The notes under the pieces are model-generated. The model was not told the origin of the DNA. It made no database searches and worked only from the letters and a program-made list of their open reading frames with translations. Of a DNA stretch of 42,127 nt, positions 5,221-41,831 are shown one piece after another. Both the position numbers and the translations under genes were made by a program. The DNA lies in assembly GCA_031258205.1 (NCBI GenBank), contig JAIRNE010000089.1, positions 1-42,127 of the forward strand, given 5' to 3'. This DNA comes from Campylobacteraceae bacterium (GTDB lineage Bacteria; Campylobacterota; Campylobacteria; Campylobacterales; Campylobacteraceae). Every line of letters starts with the position of its first letter. Within the stretch, counting starts at the first letter, position 1.

Positions 5221-5484
5221 TCACCCGTTTCTATAAACTTCACTTCTATGCCCGATTTTTAAGATAAGGATTATAAGTTTATCGTCTTGTATATCGCAGA
5301 TAAGACGATAGTCTCCGACTCTATACCGCCACAAATCGTTCAAATTGCCAACAAGAGACTTCCCTCTGCTTCTTGGATTTTCAAGGCTCTCAAGCTCGTC
5401 TGTAAATTTTTTAATCTTCTTTTGAATGCTAAAATCAAGCTTTTCAAATTGCTTTTGGGCTCTTGCTTGGTATGCGATTTTCAT
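5221..5484 (-). CDS. RelE/YafQ-type toxin
   Basis: 87 aa; GNLNDLWRYRVGDYRLICDIQDDKLIILILKIGHRSEVYR is characteristic of RelE/ParE-like toxins. Confidence 0.85.
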   Translation of the reverse strand: MKIAYQARAQKQFEKLDFSIQKKIKKFTDELESLENPRSRGKSLVGNLNDLWRYRVGDYRLICDIQDDKLIILILKIGHRSEVYRNG

Positions 5485-5705
5485 TCCAAACCTAATTTTT
5501 TATACAGGTCGTGTGCAGATATCGCTCTTTCGCCGCTTTTTTGAAACTCTCTTAACGCTTTAATGCCGTCGTAATAATCTTCCAAATCTTCCAAATGCGT
5601 CATCAAAGCTTCTCTTATTATTTGAGAATTGGAAACTTTAGCCTTTTTGCTTACGATAGACAGTCTATGCTCTAACTCTTCGGGTATTCTAACGGATAAA
5701 GTCAT
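5481..5705 (-). CDS. Ribbon-helix-helix antitoxin
   Basis: MTLSVRIPEELEHRLSIVSKKAKVSNSQIIREALMTHLED...; ATGA overlap with the toxin; start set at MTLSV rather than the longer ORF-track start. Confidence 0.85.
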   Translation of the reverse strand: MTLSVRIPEELEHRLSIVSKKAKVSNSQIIREALMTHLEDLEDYYDGIKALREFQKSGERAISAHDLYKKLGLE

Positions 5706-5761
5706 GTTAACTCCTTTGTATGACAATGTATGACGGATTATAACATAATTTTTATGATTTG
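5574..5761. repeat. 188-bp direct repeat, copy 1 (antitoxin promoter and 5' end)
   Basis: One mismatch seen by eye to 8729-8916, offset 3155 bp. Confidence 0.95.
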
Positions 5762-5927
5762 CCCTCAATCACATATTTTTCTCAAAAATTCACTTTTGAC
5801 ATAATTATTTCTTTCTCCAATCCCATGGAGGAATTGGATTTTTATCTTGCCAAAGCTATCGCTTGGCTTCTTTTGTTTTTTCTTCATATTCGGCATAGTC
5901 TTTGTCATATTGAATATATGCCCATTA

Positions 5928-33481: not shown

Positions 33482-33626
33482 CATTTGCGAATGCAAATGT
33501 AGCATAAGAAAGGTCCCAAAAATTTGCAGGCAAATTCTTTGGGAGCCCTGAGAGTTGGTTCTTAGGGTGGCTTTGCCGCCCGTCTAAGAACATAAAAATA
33601 GAGGTTCCCTTAAAATTGGGGAACCT
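33482..33626 (+). ncRNA. Repeated leader element, copy A (hairpins H1, H2, H3, H4)
   Basis: H1 33482-33499, H2 33512-33547, H3 33558-33591, H4 33602-33626. Confidence 0.75.
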
Positions 33627-33637
33627 AATTAGTTTCT

Positions 33638-33752
33638 CATTTTGCATTTGCAAAATGTAGCTTCAGAGTTGGTTCTTAGCGGAACTTCGTTTCGCGTCTA
33701 AGAACATAAAAATAGAGGTTCCCTTAAAATTGGGGAACCTAATTTTAAGGAG
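33638..33752 (+). ncRNA. Repeated leader element, copy B (H1', H3', H4, SD) upstream of the tail sheath
   Basis: H1' 33638-33657, H3' 33672-33705, H4 33716-33740; CCTTAAAATT 33722-33731 vs AATTTTAAGG 33741-33750. Confidence 0.8.
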
Positions 33753-33760
33753 AAAATAAA

Positions 33761-34888
33761 ATGGCAGCACAATTTGGCGTTAATGCAACAATCACGGCAG
33801 AGGCGGCACGTCCTATAAGTATAGAGAGTATAACTCCTATCGGTATTGCGGGCACGGCAGAGGGGATTGAGGACGAGCTTTACTTTTACGGCAGCGTAAC
33901 TGCGGCAAAAAAAGCGCTTGAGGCGGCGGAGGCGGCGGGGAGCCTGCTAAGAGCGATAAGAGCTATAGACGAGCAGTCGGTTGAAACTCCGATAATCTTT
34001 AGCGTGTTTACGGAGGGCGGTTCGGAAGGAGAAACAACGACGGCTTGCAGAAACGCTATAGAAGCGTTTAGAAATGCAAGCGGCGAATTTGGCTATACGC
34101 CAAATATTTTAATCGCTCCCGAATATTCGCATATAGCCGCGGTGGCTTCAACGCTTCAGGGCGAAGCCGAACGCCTTAGCGCAACCGGCGTTGTGGATTT
34201 GGGCGGCGTGAACGAGAGCGCGGCTTTAACGCAAGCGGACGCGTTTGGGACAAAAAGATTGATTTTACTCAATCCAAAAGTAAAAGTTTACAGCGAAGAG
34301 CAAAACGATTATGTGTATGAACCCCTGTCCGCAAGATACGCGGGACTTAGAGCCAAAACCGACGGAGAGAGCGAATACGGCTGGGCGGACAGCGCGTCAA
34401 ACAGAGTTTTAAACGGCGTATTTGGTACACAAAGACCGGTGGAATTTGTTATGGGTGCGGATTGTGAAGCCGACAGACTTAGAACTGCGCATATCGGTAC
34501 GGTTATACGGCAAGAAGGTTTTAGGCTTTGGGGCGAAGAGACGACCGATCAGGATACTATTTGGCAGGATTTGACGCGTGTGAGAGTGTTTGACCGCGTA
34601 AGCGAAGCGTGCCAAAAGGGCGTATTTTTTGCCGTAGATAAAAAGGCAGACCAGCTATTATATGCAAAGCTTAGCGTTGAAGAACTGCTAAGGGCGCTTA
34701 AGGGCGCAAGCGTGCTGATAGGTTACGACGTTGAATGGAATGCGGCGCAAAATACGCTTGCGAATATCACGGCAGGTAAATTTTACCTTGATGTCAGGAT
34801 GCAAAATATGCCGATAGTAAAAACGCTTGAGCTTAACTTCATTTACAGCGACGCTTGGGGCGAAGAGTTGATGAACAGTATAGGATAA
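33761..34888 (+). CDS. Tail sheath protein
   Basis: P2 FI-like: PISIESITPIGIAGTAEG...VFFAVDKKADQLLYAKLSVEELLRALKGASVLIGYDVEWN. Confidence 0.9.
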   Translation: MAAQFGVNATITAEAARPISIESITPIGIAGTAEGIEDELYFYGSVTAAKKALEAAEAAGSLLRAIRAIDEQSVETPIIFSVFTEGGSEGETTTACRNAIEAFRNASGEFGYTPNILIAPEYSHIAAVASTLQGEAERLSATGVVDLGGVNESAALTQADAFGTKRLILLNPKVKVYSEEQNDYVYEPLSARYAGLRAKTDGESEYGWADSASNRVLNGVFGTQRPVEFVMGADCEADRLRTAHIGTVIRQEGFRLWGEETTDQDTIWQDLTRVRVFDRVSEACQKGVFFAVDKKADQLLYAKLSVEELLRALKGASVLIGYDVEWNAAQNTLANITAGKFYLDVRMQNMPIVKTLELNFIYSDAWGEELMNSIG

Positions 34889-34901
34889 TAAGGAGATAAG
34901 A

Positions 34902-35405
34902 ATGAAAAAACAGATACCTCAAGTCATTCAGGATTTGAATGCTTTTTTAGACGGCAAAGGTTATTTGGGCGTTGTAAGCGAGGTACAGCTTCCCGCAATC
35001 GTCCAAGAAACCGTAGAGACAAAAGGCGGCGTCGGCGCGAAATATGCGACCGGAGCTATCAGCGCGATGGAAGCGACGCTGAAGTTAAATATTCTTGACG
35101 CAAATACGTATTTATCGTTTGGATTGAATACTTTTGAAAACAGAATACCGATAATTTTAAAAGGCTCTATTTACGATGACGGCAACTCTAAACCCTTAGT
35201 CGTTGTATTTACCGCAGATATAGAGTCTATAACACCAAGCGCATTTAAAGCCGGAGAGGTGATAGAGCAAGAGATAAAATTGCAGGTACAGTTTTACTCT
35301 CTTACGATAGGCGACATTCCCGTTGTCGTGATAGACAGCAGAAATATGATTTGTATGATAGGTGGCGTAGATTATTTGGGCGATCTTAGGAGTAATCTAC
35401 AATAG
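34902..35405 (+). CDS. Major tail tube protein (FII-like)
   Basis: KKQIPQVIQDLNAFLDGKGYLGVVSEVQLPAI...GGVGAKYATGAISAMEATLKL. Confidence 0.9.
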   Translation: MKKQIPQVIQDLNAFLDGKGYLGVVSEVQLPAIVQETVETKGGVGAKYATGAISAMEATLKLNILDANTYLSFGLNTFENRIPIILKGSIYDDGNSKPLVVVFTADIESITPSAFKAGEVIEQEIKLQVQFYSLTIGDIPVVVIDSRNMICMIGGVDYLGDLRSNLQ

Positions 35406-35408
35406 TTG

Positions 35409-35489
35409 GTTCTTAGCGGAACTTTGTTTCGCGTCTAAGAACATAAAAATAGAGGTTCCCTTAAAATTGGGGAACCTAATTTTAAGGAG
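35409..35489 (+). ncRNA. Repeated leader element, copy C (H3', H4, SD) upstream of the tail chaperone gene
   Basis: H3' 35409-35442, H4 35453-35477; CCTTAAAATT 35459-35468 vs AATTTTAAGG 35478-35487. Confidence 0.8.
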
Positions 35490-35497
35490 AAAATATA

Positions 35498-35740
35498 ATG
35501 ACAAGAAGTAAAACCGTAAAATTAGAGGTCGCAAACAAAGAGGTTACGATACACGCTCCAACAGTCGGCGTTATTATTAACGCAAGCGAAAGCAGCAAAA
35601 ATGAAGTCGCTCAAGGCGCGGCAGTTGCCGCCGCTTGCTGCAATATGACTGAAACTGAGATCAGAGCTCTTGACGCGCTTGATTTTAACGTAATCCAAAA
35701 GGTTATTACGGATTTTTTAGGACAAGCGGCGCAAGAGTGA
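35498..35740 (+). CDS. Tail assembly chaperone E-like (zero frame)
   Basis: 80 aa between tail tube and tape measure; P2 gene-E position. Confidence 0.8.
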   Translation: MTRSKTVKLEVANKEVTIHAPTVGVIINASESSKNEVAQGAAVAAACCNMTETEIRALDALDFNVIQKVITDFLGQAAQE

Positions 35741-35871
35741 GTATAGAAGCTCTCGCCCTTGTCGCGCATGTGTTGCATTTTGGTCATAAGGAGATGCTGG
35801 GTATGGATATAAAAACTTTTGGCGAGTATTTAAGATGCTCTAAAGAGATTTTGAAAAAAACTATCGCGTAA
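35719..35871 (+). CDS. E' extension (gpE+E' by -1 frameshift at T TTT TTA 35713-35719)
   Basis: -1 frame RTSGARVSIEALALVAHVLHFGHKEMLGMDIKTFGEYLRCSKEILKKTIA*. Confidence 0.75.
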   Translation, partial: RTSGARVSIEALALVAHVLHFGHKEMLGMDIKTFGEYLRCSKEILKKTIA

Positions 35872-36040
35872 GGTCAAAAAGAATGACGTTAATTATAAAA
35901 AGAATGAACAATAACGCTAAAACGCCCATTGCAAACCCAATGCCAAACGGTTCGTTCGCGGTTAATATCTCCCCGATTGTGCCTGCGGCAATCATTAACA
36001 TTATAGATTGGCGTTTCGTTTTTTTGTTTATTAGTTCCAT
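35861..36040 (-). CDS. Small membrane protein on the opposite strand
   Basis: MELINKKTKRQSIMLMIAAGTIGEILTANEPFGIGFAMGVLALLFILFIINVILFDLTR*; own sigma70-like promoter. Confidence 0.5.
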   Translation of the reverse strand: MELINKKTKRQSIMLMIAAGTIGEILTANEPFGIGFAMGVLALLFILFIINVILFDLTR

Positions 36041-36047
36041 ACCGTTT

Positions 36048-36076
36048 ATTATAACAAAATATTTCTTATTTTACAA
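36048..36076 (-). promoter_or_regulatory. Sigma70-like promoter TTGTAA-N17-TATAAT for the small membrane ORF
   Basis: -35 at 36071-36076, -10 at 36048-36053, minus strand. Confidence 0.55.
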
Positions 36077-36130
36077 CGCAAGAGGCGTGCTAAAAAATGT
36101 AAAAATGTTTTTCGCAAGCGCAGCGCGGCA

Positions 36131-36266
36131 GCATAAGAAAGGTCCCAAAAAATTCGCAGGCAAATTCTTTGGGAGCCCTGAGAGTTGGTTCTTAGGGTGG
36201 CTTTGCCGCCCGTCTAAGAACATAAAAATAGAGGTTCCCTTAAAATTGGGGAACCTAATTTTAAGG
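36131..36266 (+). ncRNA. Repeated leader element, copy D (H2, H3, H4, SD) upstream of the tape measure gene
   Basis: H2 36141-36177, H3 36188-36221, H4 36232-36256; CCTTAAAATT 36238-36247 vs AATTTTAAGG 36257-36266. Confidence 0.8.
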
Positions 36267-36275
36267 ACTTAAAGT

Positions 36276-38435
36276 ATGGAAAAGATGGTTTTAGGCATAG
36301 CCATAGGCTTGAGCGCTCATGGGCTTAGCGGCGTCAAAACCGTTACCGCAAGCTTAAAAGAGCTTAGTCAAATGGCGGCAAAAACAAAAACAGGCATAGC
36401 GGGACTTCAAAAAGAACTTCAAGCATATGATAAAAACTTGTCCGAGATAGGCTCTTTGCAAGCTAACAACGCCGCTTTAAGAAGTAAACTTATAGGGATA
36501 GGCAAAATCGGCGCTATGCTTGGCGGCGGCAAATCCGTAAGTTTGGCGATAGAGTATGAAAATGCCATGGCAGATATAAAAAAAGTTGTTGAGTTTACAA
36601 GCAAAGAGCAGGAAAATCTTTTTGCGCAGCAGATATTGCATCTTTCGCGCGACATTCCTCTTGCCGCAGCCGAACTTGCGCAAATTACGGCAAGCGGCGG
36701 GCAAATGGGTATAGCTGCCGACCAATTGATGGAGTTTACCGAAGTCGTTGCAAAAATGAAAACGGCTTTTGATATGAGCGCAGACGATGCGAGCCGCTCT
36801 ATGGCGACGATAATGAACGTTTACTCACTTGGCATTAAAGAGGCAAAAGAGCTTGGCGACGCTATGAATACGGTATCAAACACGGTAGGCGTAAAAGCAA
36901 GAGACGTAACTGAAGTTATGGCGCGCATCGGCGGTAATGCAAAAGTTTTTGGGCTAACAAGCGAGCAAGCCGCCGCGCTTTCATCTACATTTTTATCTCT
37001 TGGCAAAAGTCCGCAGATAGCCGGAACGGCTATAAATTCTATGCTGTCCAAACTTGCAACGGCAGATACGCAAGGCAAGGATTTTCAAGATACGCTTGAG
37101 AGTATAGGACTTAGCGCGGTTGACTTAAAAGATATGATACAAGCCGACGCGGGGGCAGCTATAGATATAGTTTTAGACTCTCTTGCGGGAGTGGATAAAT
37201 CCGAACAGTTGACGGTCTTGAAAAAACTGTTCGGAGAGGGGATTTCGGACGATATGGCTCTTTTGGTCGGAAGTCTTGGACAGTATAGAAAAGCGCTTGG
37301 CAGCGTTGCCGATAAAACCAAATATATGGGGAGTATGCAAAGAGAGTTTGACGCGCGCAGTAAAACGACAGGCAACAGCATAACAAAAATGAAAAATGCG
37401 TTTTCAGAACTTGGCATAGGGATAGGCAATGCTTTTTTGCCTTTACTGAATTCGATGGCAAAAGGTATTGCATTTTTGATACAGCGTATAGTAGATTTTA
37501 TGAATAAGTATAAAACTTTATCGGAAATTATTATATACGGTATCGGCGCATTAATGGCTGTAAAAACGGCTTCCATAGCTTTAGCTATCGCAAAAAATAC
37601 TCTAAGGATAGCGACTCTAAGGTCGGCAAACGCGTCTATTTTTTCGCGTATCGCAGCTCTTGCCGAGAGCGGCGCAACGACCGCAGGCACGGCGGCGCTT
37701 ATAAGAAAAACGGCGGCTTTAAAATTGGCTTCGATAAGGACGCTTCTTTTTACAAACAGTGTTAATTTTTTAAAAGGTTCTCTTATGCTTGCGAGCGGCG
37801 GCATACAATTTATGTTTGGATGGATAGGCAGCGTGATAAAAGCCATAAGATCATGGACAATTGTACAAGCGGCGTTAAATATTGTTATGACTCTTAATCC
37901 TATAGGGCTTATCATTGCCGCTATTGCCGCCGTGATAGCGATAATAGCCGTATGCGTTACAAAATTTGAATGGGTCAAAAACGTCATAAGCGGCGTTTGG
38001 GAGACGATTAAATTTTTATTTGAGTGGTCGCCTTTAGGACTTTTAGTTAAAGGTGTCGGCGCGGCTATAGATTGGCTGGCTGGTAAATTTGAATGGATAG
38101 GCGCTATAGGCAGTAAAATCGGCGAGTGGTGGGGCGGGATTAAAAGCTTTTTGGGTTTTGGCGGCAGCGAGGATATTGAAGTAAATAAAAATATAAATTC
38201 AAACGGCGTAATTGACAATGTGTATGAACCCGATATCGCGGCTTCGGGAAGTTACGATATGAGCGGCAGTTATGAGGGCGGCGGCGTGAACGTTAATTTT
38301 AACGGGGATTTTCTTATCGGAGTGGGTACGGATGGAAAATTTGATTTTAAAGAGTTTAAAAAAGAGCTTGTTGCCGCCGTTAAAAGCTCTATTGAAAAAG
38401 AGAGGTTCAATATGCAAAACAGGAGTTTGGCATGA
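36276..38435 (+). CDS. Tail tape measure protein
   Basis: TP901-like core (YENAMADIKKVVEFTSKEQ...LAQITASGGQMGI...AINSMLSKLA), hydrophobic segments. Confidence 0.95.
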   Translation: MEKMVLGIAIGLSAHGLSGVKTVTASLKELSQMAAKTKTGIAGLQKELQAYDKNLSEIGSLQANNAALRSKLIGIGKIGAMLGGGKSVSLAIEYENAMADIKKVVEFTSKEQENLFAQQILHLSRDIPLAAAELAQITASGGQMGIAADQLMEFTEVVAKMKTAFDMSADDASRSMATIMNVYSLGIKEAKELGDAMNTVSNTVGVKARDVTEVMARIGGNAKVFGLTSEQAAALSSTFLSLGKSPQIAGTAINSMLSKLATADTQGKDFQDTLESIGLSAVDLKDMIQADAGAAIDIVLDSLAGVDKSEQLTVLKKLFGEGISDDMALLVGSLGQYRKALGSVADKTKYMGSMQREFDARSKTTGNSITKMKNAFSELGIGIGNAFLPLLNSMAKGIAFLIQRIVDFMNKYKTLSEIIIYGIGALMAVKTASIALAIAKNTLRIATLRSANASIFSRIAALAESGATTAGTAALIRKTAALKLASIRTLLFTNSVNFLKGSLMLASGGIQFMFGWIGSVIKAIRSWTIVQAALNIVMTLNPIGLIIAAIAAVIAIIAVCVTKFEWVKNVISGVWETIKFLFEWSPLGLLVKGVGAAIDWLAGKFEWIGAIGSKIGEWWGGIKSFLGFGGSEDIEVNKNINSNGVIDNVYEPDIAASGSYDMSGSYEGGGVNVNFNGDFLIGVGTDGKFDFKEFKKELVAAVKSSIEKERFNMQNRSLA

Positions 38436-40625: not shown

Positions 40626-41831
40626 TTACGAATTTTTGAGGTTATCTAAATAGTCCGACCACCACTGCATAAGTTTCACGCGTTCTAACATGTATTCGGC
40701 ATGGTTATAAGCCGCTTTAACGCCGTTTCGTTCTGAATGAGCCAATTGTCGTTCTATAGCGTCCGAATGGATACCGTGAGCTGAAATATTTTCATGTAAA
40801 ATAGTTGAAGCTATGCCCCTGAAACTATGCGCCACTATTTCGTCTTTTGTGTAATCAAGTCTGCGCAGGGCTTGCACAAGCGTATTTTCGCAAATCGGTC
40901 GCAAATTTGATGTGGGACTTGGAAATAGATATTTACCGTTACCTATTATTTTTTTCACATTTTGAATAATTTCTATTACCTGTTTTGAGAGTGGAATAAT
41001 GTGAGGTGTTTTTGTTTTCATTTTTTCTTTTGGGATGCGCCAAATTTTTTTGTCAAGGTCAATTTCCGACCATTCCGCAAAACGCAAGTTTGCCGGACGC
41101 AAAAAGACATGAGGAGCAAGCTGCAAGGCATATTTTGTAATTAAATTTCCATGATAATTGTCTATGTCCCGCAGCAATTGTCCTAATTTTTTAGGCTCTA
41201 TGATTACGGGGAAATTACGTTTTACGGCTTGTTTAAAAGTGTTTTTTCTATCTATATCGGCTATTATATTGTGAGGCGCGTATTCTTTTGACACTGCAAA
41301 TTTAAAAATGGAATTGAGCGTATTTAGCACTTTACGAAGCGTTTCTAAATACCCTTTTGCTTCTATTATTTCAGCCATTTTTATTACATCTTTAACCGTT
41401 ATTTTTGACGTTTCTAAATTGCCGATTTGGGGATTTATATGATTGCGTAGATAGCCTTCTATGCTCTCTTTATGTGTTAAGCTGATTCTGTCGGCGTTTT
41501 TTTCAAGCCATATTTGCGCAACTTTTTCGAGTGAATTTATTTCATTTTGCAACTTTTTTTTGCGTTTGTCAGTTGGATTGATGCCGTTTTTTACTTGTTT
41601 ATAATATTCTTTATGTTTTTCTCTTGCTTGTGCAAGCGATATCTCCGGATATTTACCGATAGACAGCAGTTGCTCTTTGCCATCTATTTTATATCTAAAA
41701 TGCCAATATTTTACACCTGTTACGTTTATGACTAAGCATAATCCATTTCCATCGAATAACTTATATATTTTATCTTTTGGCTTTGCATTCTTTACTTTCA
41801 ATTCGGATAACGGAGTAACAAGTTTAGGCAT
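40626..41831 (-). CDS. int: Tyrosine integrase (P4-type, DUF4102 N-terminus)
   Basis: KPKDKIYKLFDGNGLCLVI...; HSFRGIASTILHE, RQLAHSERNGVKAAYNHAEYMLERVKLMQWWSDYL. Confidence 0.95.
   Translation of the reverse strand: MPKLVTPLSELKVKNAKPKDKIYKLFDGNGLCLVINVTGVKYWHFRYKIDGKEQLLSIGKYPEISLAQAREKHKEYYKQVKNGINPTDKRKKKLQNEINSLEKVAQIWLEKNADRISLTHKESIEGYLRNHINPQIGNLETSKITVKDVIKMAEIIEAKGYLETLRKVLNTLNSIFKFAVSKEYAPHNIIADIDRKNTFKQAVKRNFPVIIEPKKLGQLLRDIDNYHGNLITKYALQLAPHVFLRPANLRFAEWSEIDLDKKIWRIPKEKMKTKTPHIIPLSKQVIEIIQNVKKIIGNGKYLFPSPTSNLRPICENTLVQALRRLDYTKDEIVAHSFRGIASTILHENISAHGIHSDAIERQLAHSERNGVKAAYNHAEYMLERVKLMQWWSDYLDNLKNS

Follow-up and report, generated by a model that had tools for sequence, protein, structure and literature searches.

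An order-wide structured RNA element of Campylobacterales repeated in front of prophage tail genes

Hairpin arrays in a prophage tail cluster

The stretch of DNA analysed here (the window; 42,127 nucleotides) is one contig of a metagenome-assembled genome (MAG) that is 59% complete and is placed in Campylobacteraceae by inference from rRNA-bearing relatives and viral isolates. The contig contains a contractile-tail prophage that adjoins a tRNA-Ser gene, with an integrase at positions 40626-41831. Arrays of hairpins are repeated, in different combinations, in front of several tail genes of this prophage. This raises the question whether the hairpins are kept by selection on structure rather than on sequence, as had been proposed from the sequence alone, and what their role would be. 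The arrays extend over positions 33482-33626 (A) and 33638-33750 (B), which are in tandem, 35409-35487 (C) and 36141-36266 (D), and precede the genes for the tail sheath (A and B), the tail assembly chaperone (C) and the tape measure (D). Their modules and the genes concerned are as follows.

33482..33499, plus strand: copy A, H1 hairpin CATTTGC/GCAAATG, read directly
33512..33547, plus strand: copy A, H2 hairpin GGTCCCAAAAATTTGC...GCAAATTCTTTGGGAGCC
33558..33591, plus strand: copy A, covarying hairpin H3, then ATAAAAAT tail (E 1.3e-12, model from other genomes)
33602..33626, plus strand: copy A, H4, Shine-Dalgarno (SD)-free hairpin only
33638..33657, plus strand: copy B, H1' hairpin CATTTTGC/GCAAAATG
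33672..33705, plus strand: copy B, H3' (E 3.2e-10, model from other genomes)
33716..33740, plus strand: copy B, H4 fold 1 (SD free), AGGTTCCC/GGGGAACCT
33722..33750, plus strand: copy B, H4 fold 2 (SD hidden), CCTTAAAATTGGG/CCTAATTTTAAGG
33761..34888, plus strand: tail sheath gene (PF04984, phrog_23), 3' of arrays A and B
35409..35442, plus strand: copy C, H3', directly 3' of the tail-tube stop codon (E 3.5e-10, model from other genomes)
35453..35487, plus strand: copy C, H4, both folds
35498..35740, plus strand: tail assembly chaperone gene, gpE/gp41 type (PF10109), 3' of array C
36141..36177, plus strand: copy D, H2
36188..36221, plus strand: copy D, H3 (E 1.3e-12, model from other genomes)
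36232..36266, plus strand: copy D, H4, both folds
36276..38435, plus strand: tail tape measure gene (PF10145, phrog_28), 3' of array D

The modular composition described in the sequence-only reading (A = H1-H2-H3-H4, B = H1'-H3'-H4, C = H3'-H4, D = H2-H3-H4) was found in full. The H4 of copy A lacks the Shine-Dalgarno end and is fused to copy B, the H1' of copy B is followed by TAGCTTCAG, a degenerate CTTTAG motif, and a weak G+C-rich stretch that precedes D is possibly the remnant of an H1. The two versions of the H3 inner stem, GGTGGC-TTT-GCCGCC in A and D and CGGAAC-TTC/TTT-GTTTCG in B and C, can likewise be read in the sequence. They differ at pairs 1, 3, 4 and 5 of six with pairing kept throughout, pair 3 being a wobble in both, inside a frame (GTTCTTAG...CGTCTAAGAAC) that is invariant across the window copies. 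H1 differs between copies as well, having the 7 bp CATTTGC/GCAAATG in A and the 8 bp CATTTTGC/GCAAAATG in B. Relative to dinucleotide shuffles, the folding z-scores are -3.75 and -2.42 for the H3 hairpins, -4.27 for the 96-nt H3-H4 leader and a marginal -2.05 for H1-H2 alone.

The MAG, at its 59% completeness, contains four copies of the element, all inside the prophage. Searches with the array by blastn in phage and plasmid collections gave zero matches, and viral contigs searched for the exact H4 core contained none. The array is absent before the sheath gene in tail-sheath relatives from viral contigs (L014-L026), so that this tail cluster does not always carry it.

Some other features of the region were observed. 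The end of the chaperone ORF (35498-35740) is overlapped by a second ORF (35737-35871, VSIEALALVAHVLHFGHKEMLG...; together in window positions 35498-35874), and the two, like gpE/E' of P2, are likely a pair linked by programmed frameshifting. A short ORF for a small hydrophobic protein apparently lies on the minus strand (about 35864-36093), between the genes for the chaperone and the tape measure; a similar 60-aa ORF (MELISKKDKRLSIILSLIAGTIGEIL...) lies at the same place in L031 (956-1138) in the opposite orientation, and this ORF before the tape measure gene is possibly a moron gene. Elsewhere in the window (5221-5768, minus strand), adjacent small ORFs resemble, by eye, a RelE/ParE-type toxin and a ribbon-helix-helix antitoxin.

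Covariation of H3 and the two folds of H4

The covariation within the window amounts to one or two independent changes among four copies and is not provable from these; homologues were therefore collected. Related hairpins were found with blastn against 199 relatives, and a first H3 covariance model was built from four sequences outside the window. This model recovered all four window copies (E 1e-12 to 4e-10) and matched 56 of 153 family genomes (E<=0.1). With a second model, matches at E<=0.01 came from 59 of the 399 genomes sampled across the order and from 25 of the 88 genera. As about four of these 59 matches are expected by chance, the occurrence in families f1, f9, f20 and f7 is secure and that in f5, f12 and f13 is not. 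A contig scan, for which the pattern (TTAAAGAA only) was too narrow and from which Campylobacter records were apparently left out, gave two genuine Arcobacteraceae matches and one Sulfurovum-labelled match, the remainder being noise.

In 86 distinct H3 sequences, standard pairs occupied 97.7% of the pair cells compared with 72.4% after shuffling, the covariation score was 0.653 compared with 0.197, and changes on both sides of a pair numbered 284 versus 88 in the control. Pairing fell to 40-53% when the partner was slid by one to three columns. The result held in a second set of 61 sequences, most of them from other families (95.3% paired versus 71.7%; score 0.642). These alignments were fitted to the structure and the shuffle and slide controls are not tree-aware; the margins are nonetheless large. 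The proposal of selection on structure rather than sequence is thus borne out by compensatory change in homologues across the order, far above shuffled and register-shifted controls, and it is this homologue test, not the window copies, that establishes the covariation.

The pairs also tell the strands apart. On the gene-sense strand G:U exceeded A:C by 69 to 5 in the 86-sequence set and by 19 to 1 in the 61-sequence set (in total 88 versus 6), a large margin even though the model somewhat favours G:U over A:C. Since this excess would be reversed on the other strand, selection acts on the gene-sense RNA, and H3 is thereby shown to be conserved as an RNA structure on that strand. The same data bear on a DNA-level element, for instance an operator or a palindrome bound by a protein. 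An element of that kind would show inverted repeats in front of genes, as is the case here, divergent arrangements included. However, the inner stems of H3 are almost free in sequence and still paired, the G:U bias is strong, and H3 is also found inside rRNA operons between 16S and 23S. We therefore disfavour the DNA-level reading as highly improbable.

The sequence that follows H3, GGU(U)CCC...GGGA(A)C...AAGGA, constitutes H4 and has two competing folds. In the SD-free fold GGUUCCC pairs with GGGAACC; in the SD-hidden fold CCUU... pairs with ...AAGG and covers the Shine-Dalgarno sequence. For 40 of 46 leaders, few or no shuffles matched the SD-hiding stem (p<0.01). The mean predicted energies of the two folds are nearly equal (-7.7 kcal/mol hidden, -8.2 kcal/mol free), with -14.8 and -13.6 for H4 of window copy B. 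The hidden fold covaries (93.4% versus 69.0%, in a set selected for pairing); the SD-free fold shows little covariation and is kept mainly in sequence. The folding model thus predicts that H4 is a bistable ribosome-binding site. An H-type pseudoknot between the H4 loop and the 3' tail leaves no room for a linker and was rejected, as was a Rho-independent terminator, A and not U being found 3' of the hairpin.

With two exclusive predicted folds, one of which pairs the Shine-Dalgarno sequence, H4 resembles RNA thermometers and translational riboswitches, but it has no ligand core and is the last module of an array repeated before unrelated genes. Alternatively, H4 could be the centre of a ligand- or CsrA-type switch, in which a CsrA-like protein would lock the SD-hidden fold through one GGA in its loop and a second GGA from the Shine-Dalgarno sequence. 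Most hidden folds do have a GGA or GAA loop beside an AAGGA Shine-Dalgarno sequence. The loop is AAA or AAC, however, in the dnaK leaders of f9, and H3 contains no such motif; we regard this kind of switch as distinctly unlikely.

When Rfam 15 was searched with the window and five array loci, no match to the array reached the gathering score, and sub-threshold matches on the array were far below the cut-offs of their families. Six further loci gave matches to rRNA and tRNA only. We found no description of the element in the literature on intergenic hairpins of Campylobacter and Arcobacter and on rRNA leader hairpins. Taken together, these results make the element a genuine structured RNA family that extends across the order Campylobacterales.

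Placement at gene starts, rRNA ends and operon junctions

Near protein genes, H3 and the next gene had the same orientation in 63 cases and opposing orientations in 18; of the 63 co-oriented genes, 43 start within about 60 nt of H3. The elements thus lie mostly immediately before gene starts and are not a generic repeat unrelated to them, the outcome that would have spoken against the original proposal. Host genes 3' of H3 include infA (five genomes), flgI, a focA/nirC-type transporter gene and the gene for fructose-bisphosphatase. Many prophages carry H3, in front of tail tube, tail chaperone, Rz-like and MuB-like genes among others. In f9, the full H1-CUUUAG-H3-H4-SD array is located between operon genes and in most cases begins some 20 nt past the stop codon of the preceding gene; it is found at the junctions grpE-dnaK, sufB-sufC, hypE-hypA, aroA-ispH and amtB-glnK and at ureC and nif genes (gene names are our own reading of the translations, not database assignments). 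An arbitrary 400-kb stretch of G471 contained four clear matches, all intercistronic and co-oriented, urease and nif genes being included. One nif cluster (L285, G160:C16) has three complete arrays, one of them directly 3' of nifH. In IMG/VR prophages L229, L234, L240 and L244, pairs of H3 elements share a single intergenic region in opposite, outward orientation.

Comparison with Rfam rRNA models placed the end of H3 directly before position 1 of 16S rRNA (L033, L067) or of 23S rRNA (L074), and H3 is also present in the 16S-23S spacer of G106, G114 and G209. The element is therefore not phage-specific, being found in rRNA operons and host operons as well. H3-bearing rRNA leaders have a canonical-looking boxA further upstream and a long stretch complementary to the spacer. 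Because these occur separately, H3 is neither of them, and basic rRNA processing can do without it; H3 is missing from the rRNA leaders of many relatives. In L255 and L281 an inverted H3 has its tail toward the 3' end of 23S rRNA, a position that a purely 5' role does not explain. A second type of module after the same CUUUAG (CTTTAGGTGGGTCAAGGGAGC...GCTCCTTG-YCGCAAA-hairpin-TGCGAAATTAA) precedes 16S rRNA and phage genes (L147 and L159, 16S leader; L063/L039; L229; L240) and is probably a sister element family.

An occurrence that spans phage late operons as well as the leaders and spacers of rRNA operons would also fit a transcription antitermination element (boxA/nut-like or put-like) common to both. 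The 5' arm of H3 (UUGGUUCUUUAG) resembles the Campylobacter boxA (UUGUUCUUUAACA), put sites are hairpins, and the order of a hairpin and then CUUUAG recalls boxB-boxA. The boxB-boxA-boxC arrangement of rRNA operons likewise combines, in leaders and spacers, a hairpin with a CUUUA-type motif. In contrast to that arrangement, H3 coexists with a separate, canonical-looking boxA further upstream, abuts mature rRNA ends and mRNA starts, and has covarying pairing that extends to its boxA-like arm (at the base C-G replaces G-C, and further in A-U replaces U-A). Moreover, CUUUAG is degraded in the window and the usual site is just before a ribosome-binding site. H3 is not a linear, sequence-conserved NusB/S10 site acting as the boxA of the operon, and we consider antitermination an unlikely explanation.

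A more serious alternative is that the element is a selfish or mobile hairpin repeat of the REP/MITE kind, which would spread from one intergenic site to another and do no regulatory work for its neighbour. Its hairpins would then be kept because mobilisation needs them or because template switching corrects imperfect palindromes. REP/BIME repeats are mobilised by RAYT transposases (PMC3733652, PMC8266576), and the element shares with them its patchy presence and its form of short extragenic palindromes, with at least four copies in several genomes. G028 has identical copies at unrelated sites, the window shows tandem and internal duplication, and the element is spread over host operons, rRNA operons and phages. 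The best evidence for this reading is the gain and loss at the sufB-sufC junction together with the inverted copies, some of which point their tail toward a stop codon or the 23S 3' end. Among 27 readable sufB-sufC junctions of f9, about a third have the array or a clear remnant; array-free junctions have gaps of 11-50 nt, and in G537, G391 and G481 seemingly just the last nucleotides of the array are left, as after a deletion. From this patchy occurrence (56 of 153 and 59 of 399 genomes; about a third of the sufB-sufC junctions inspected) it follows that the element is dispensable at any one site, and the pattern of gain and loss leaves some probability for a REP-like mobile reading. Against it stand the 63 to 18 orientation bias, the excess of G:U over A:C on the sense strand, which is not required of single-strand DNA hairpins, the fact that H4 ends in the gene's own Shine-Dalgarno sequence, and the four out of four clear G471 matches that are intercistronic and co-oriented. 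The element differs from REP/BIME repeats in its mostly co-oriented position relative to the downstream gene, its inclusion of a ribosome-binding site and its G:U asymmetry. On balance we judge a purely mobile repeat possible but rather doubtful.

Proposed role of the element

The element is very probably a sense-strand structured RNA placed at RNA boundaries. The array would be a portable cis-acting RNA cassette of Campylobacterales that sits where two RNA units meet, either two cistrons or a leader or spacer and the mature rRNA, in the order H1, CUUUAG-type single-stranded motif, H3, A-rich tail, H4, Shine-Dalgarno sequence and start codon. H3, with 7+8 bp and a 3-4 nt bulge on its 3' side, would isolate the downstream RNA from its upstream context and mark or protect a processed end. 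H4 would gate the access of ribosomes and so give each downstream gene its own expression level; in the prophage, the cassette would set the levels of sheath, chaperone and tape measure within one late transcript.

By analogy, H3 may be a T7-like intercistronic processing or stabilising hairpin. The R sites of phage T7, as in the gene 10 leader, are intercistronic RNase III hairpins, and RNase III also processes rRNA precursors. Like the R sites between T7 late genes, H3 is a bulged hairpin between cistrons, just upstream of the next ribosome-binding site and start. The element differs from them in being common to host rRNA and metabolic operons and in having CUUUAG and an SD-gating H4, and cleavage is conjectural here. 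The combination of boundary formation, processing or insulation by H3 with a translation gate in H4, a prediction at the RNA and protein level, has in our estimate an even chance of being right. Only tentatively do we suggest a further reading, namely a mobile 5'-boundary RNA cassette that moves among rRNA operons, host operons and phages with its own ribosome-binding-site switch and gives the downstream RNA a defined, independently folded start.

Rather than a peculiarity of one prophage, the arrays belong to a large, apparently undescribed RNA family found alike in prophages and in the rRNA and metabolic operons of a major phylum that includes pathogens. If the element proves to be a mobile repeat, its insertion sites are RNA boundaries, rRNA ends included; as a mobile cassette, it would be a natural insulator that phages and hosts in Campylobacterota pass to each other. 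Should an H3 boundary and an H4 gate act together, this would explain the differing expression of co-transcribed genes, phage tail genes among them, and would offer a natural insulator module.
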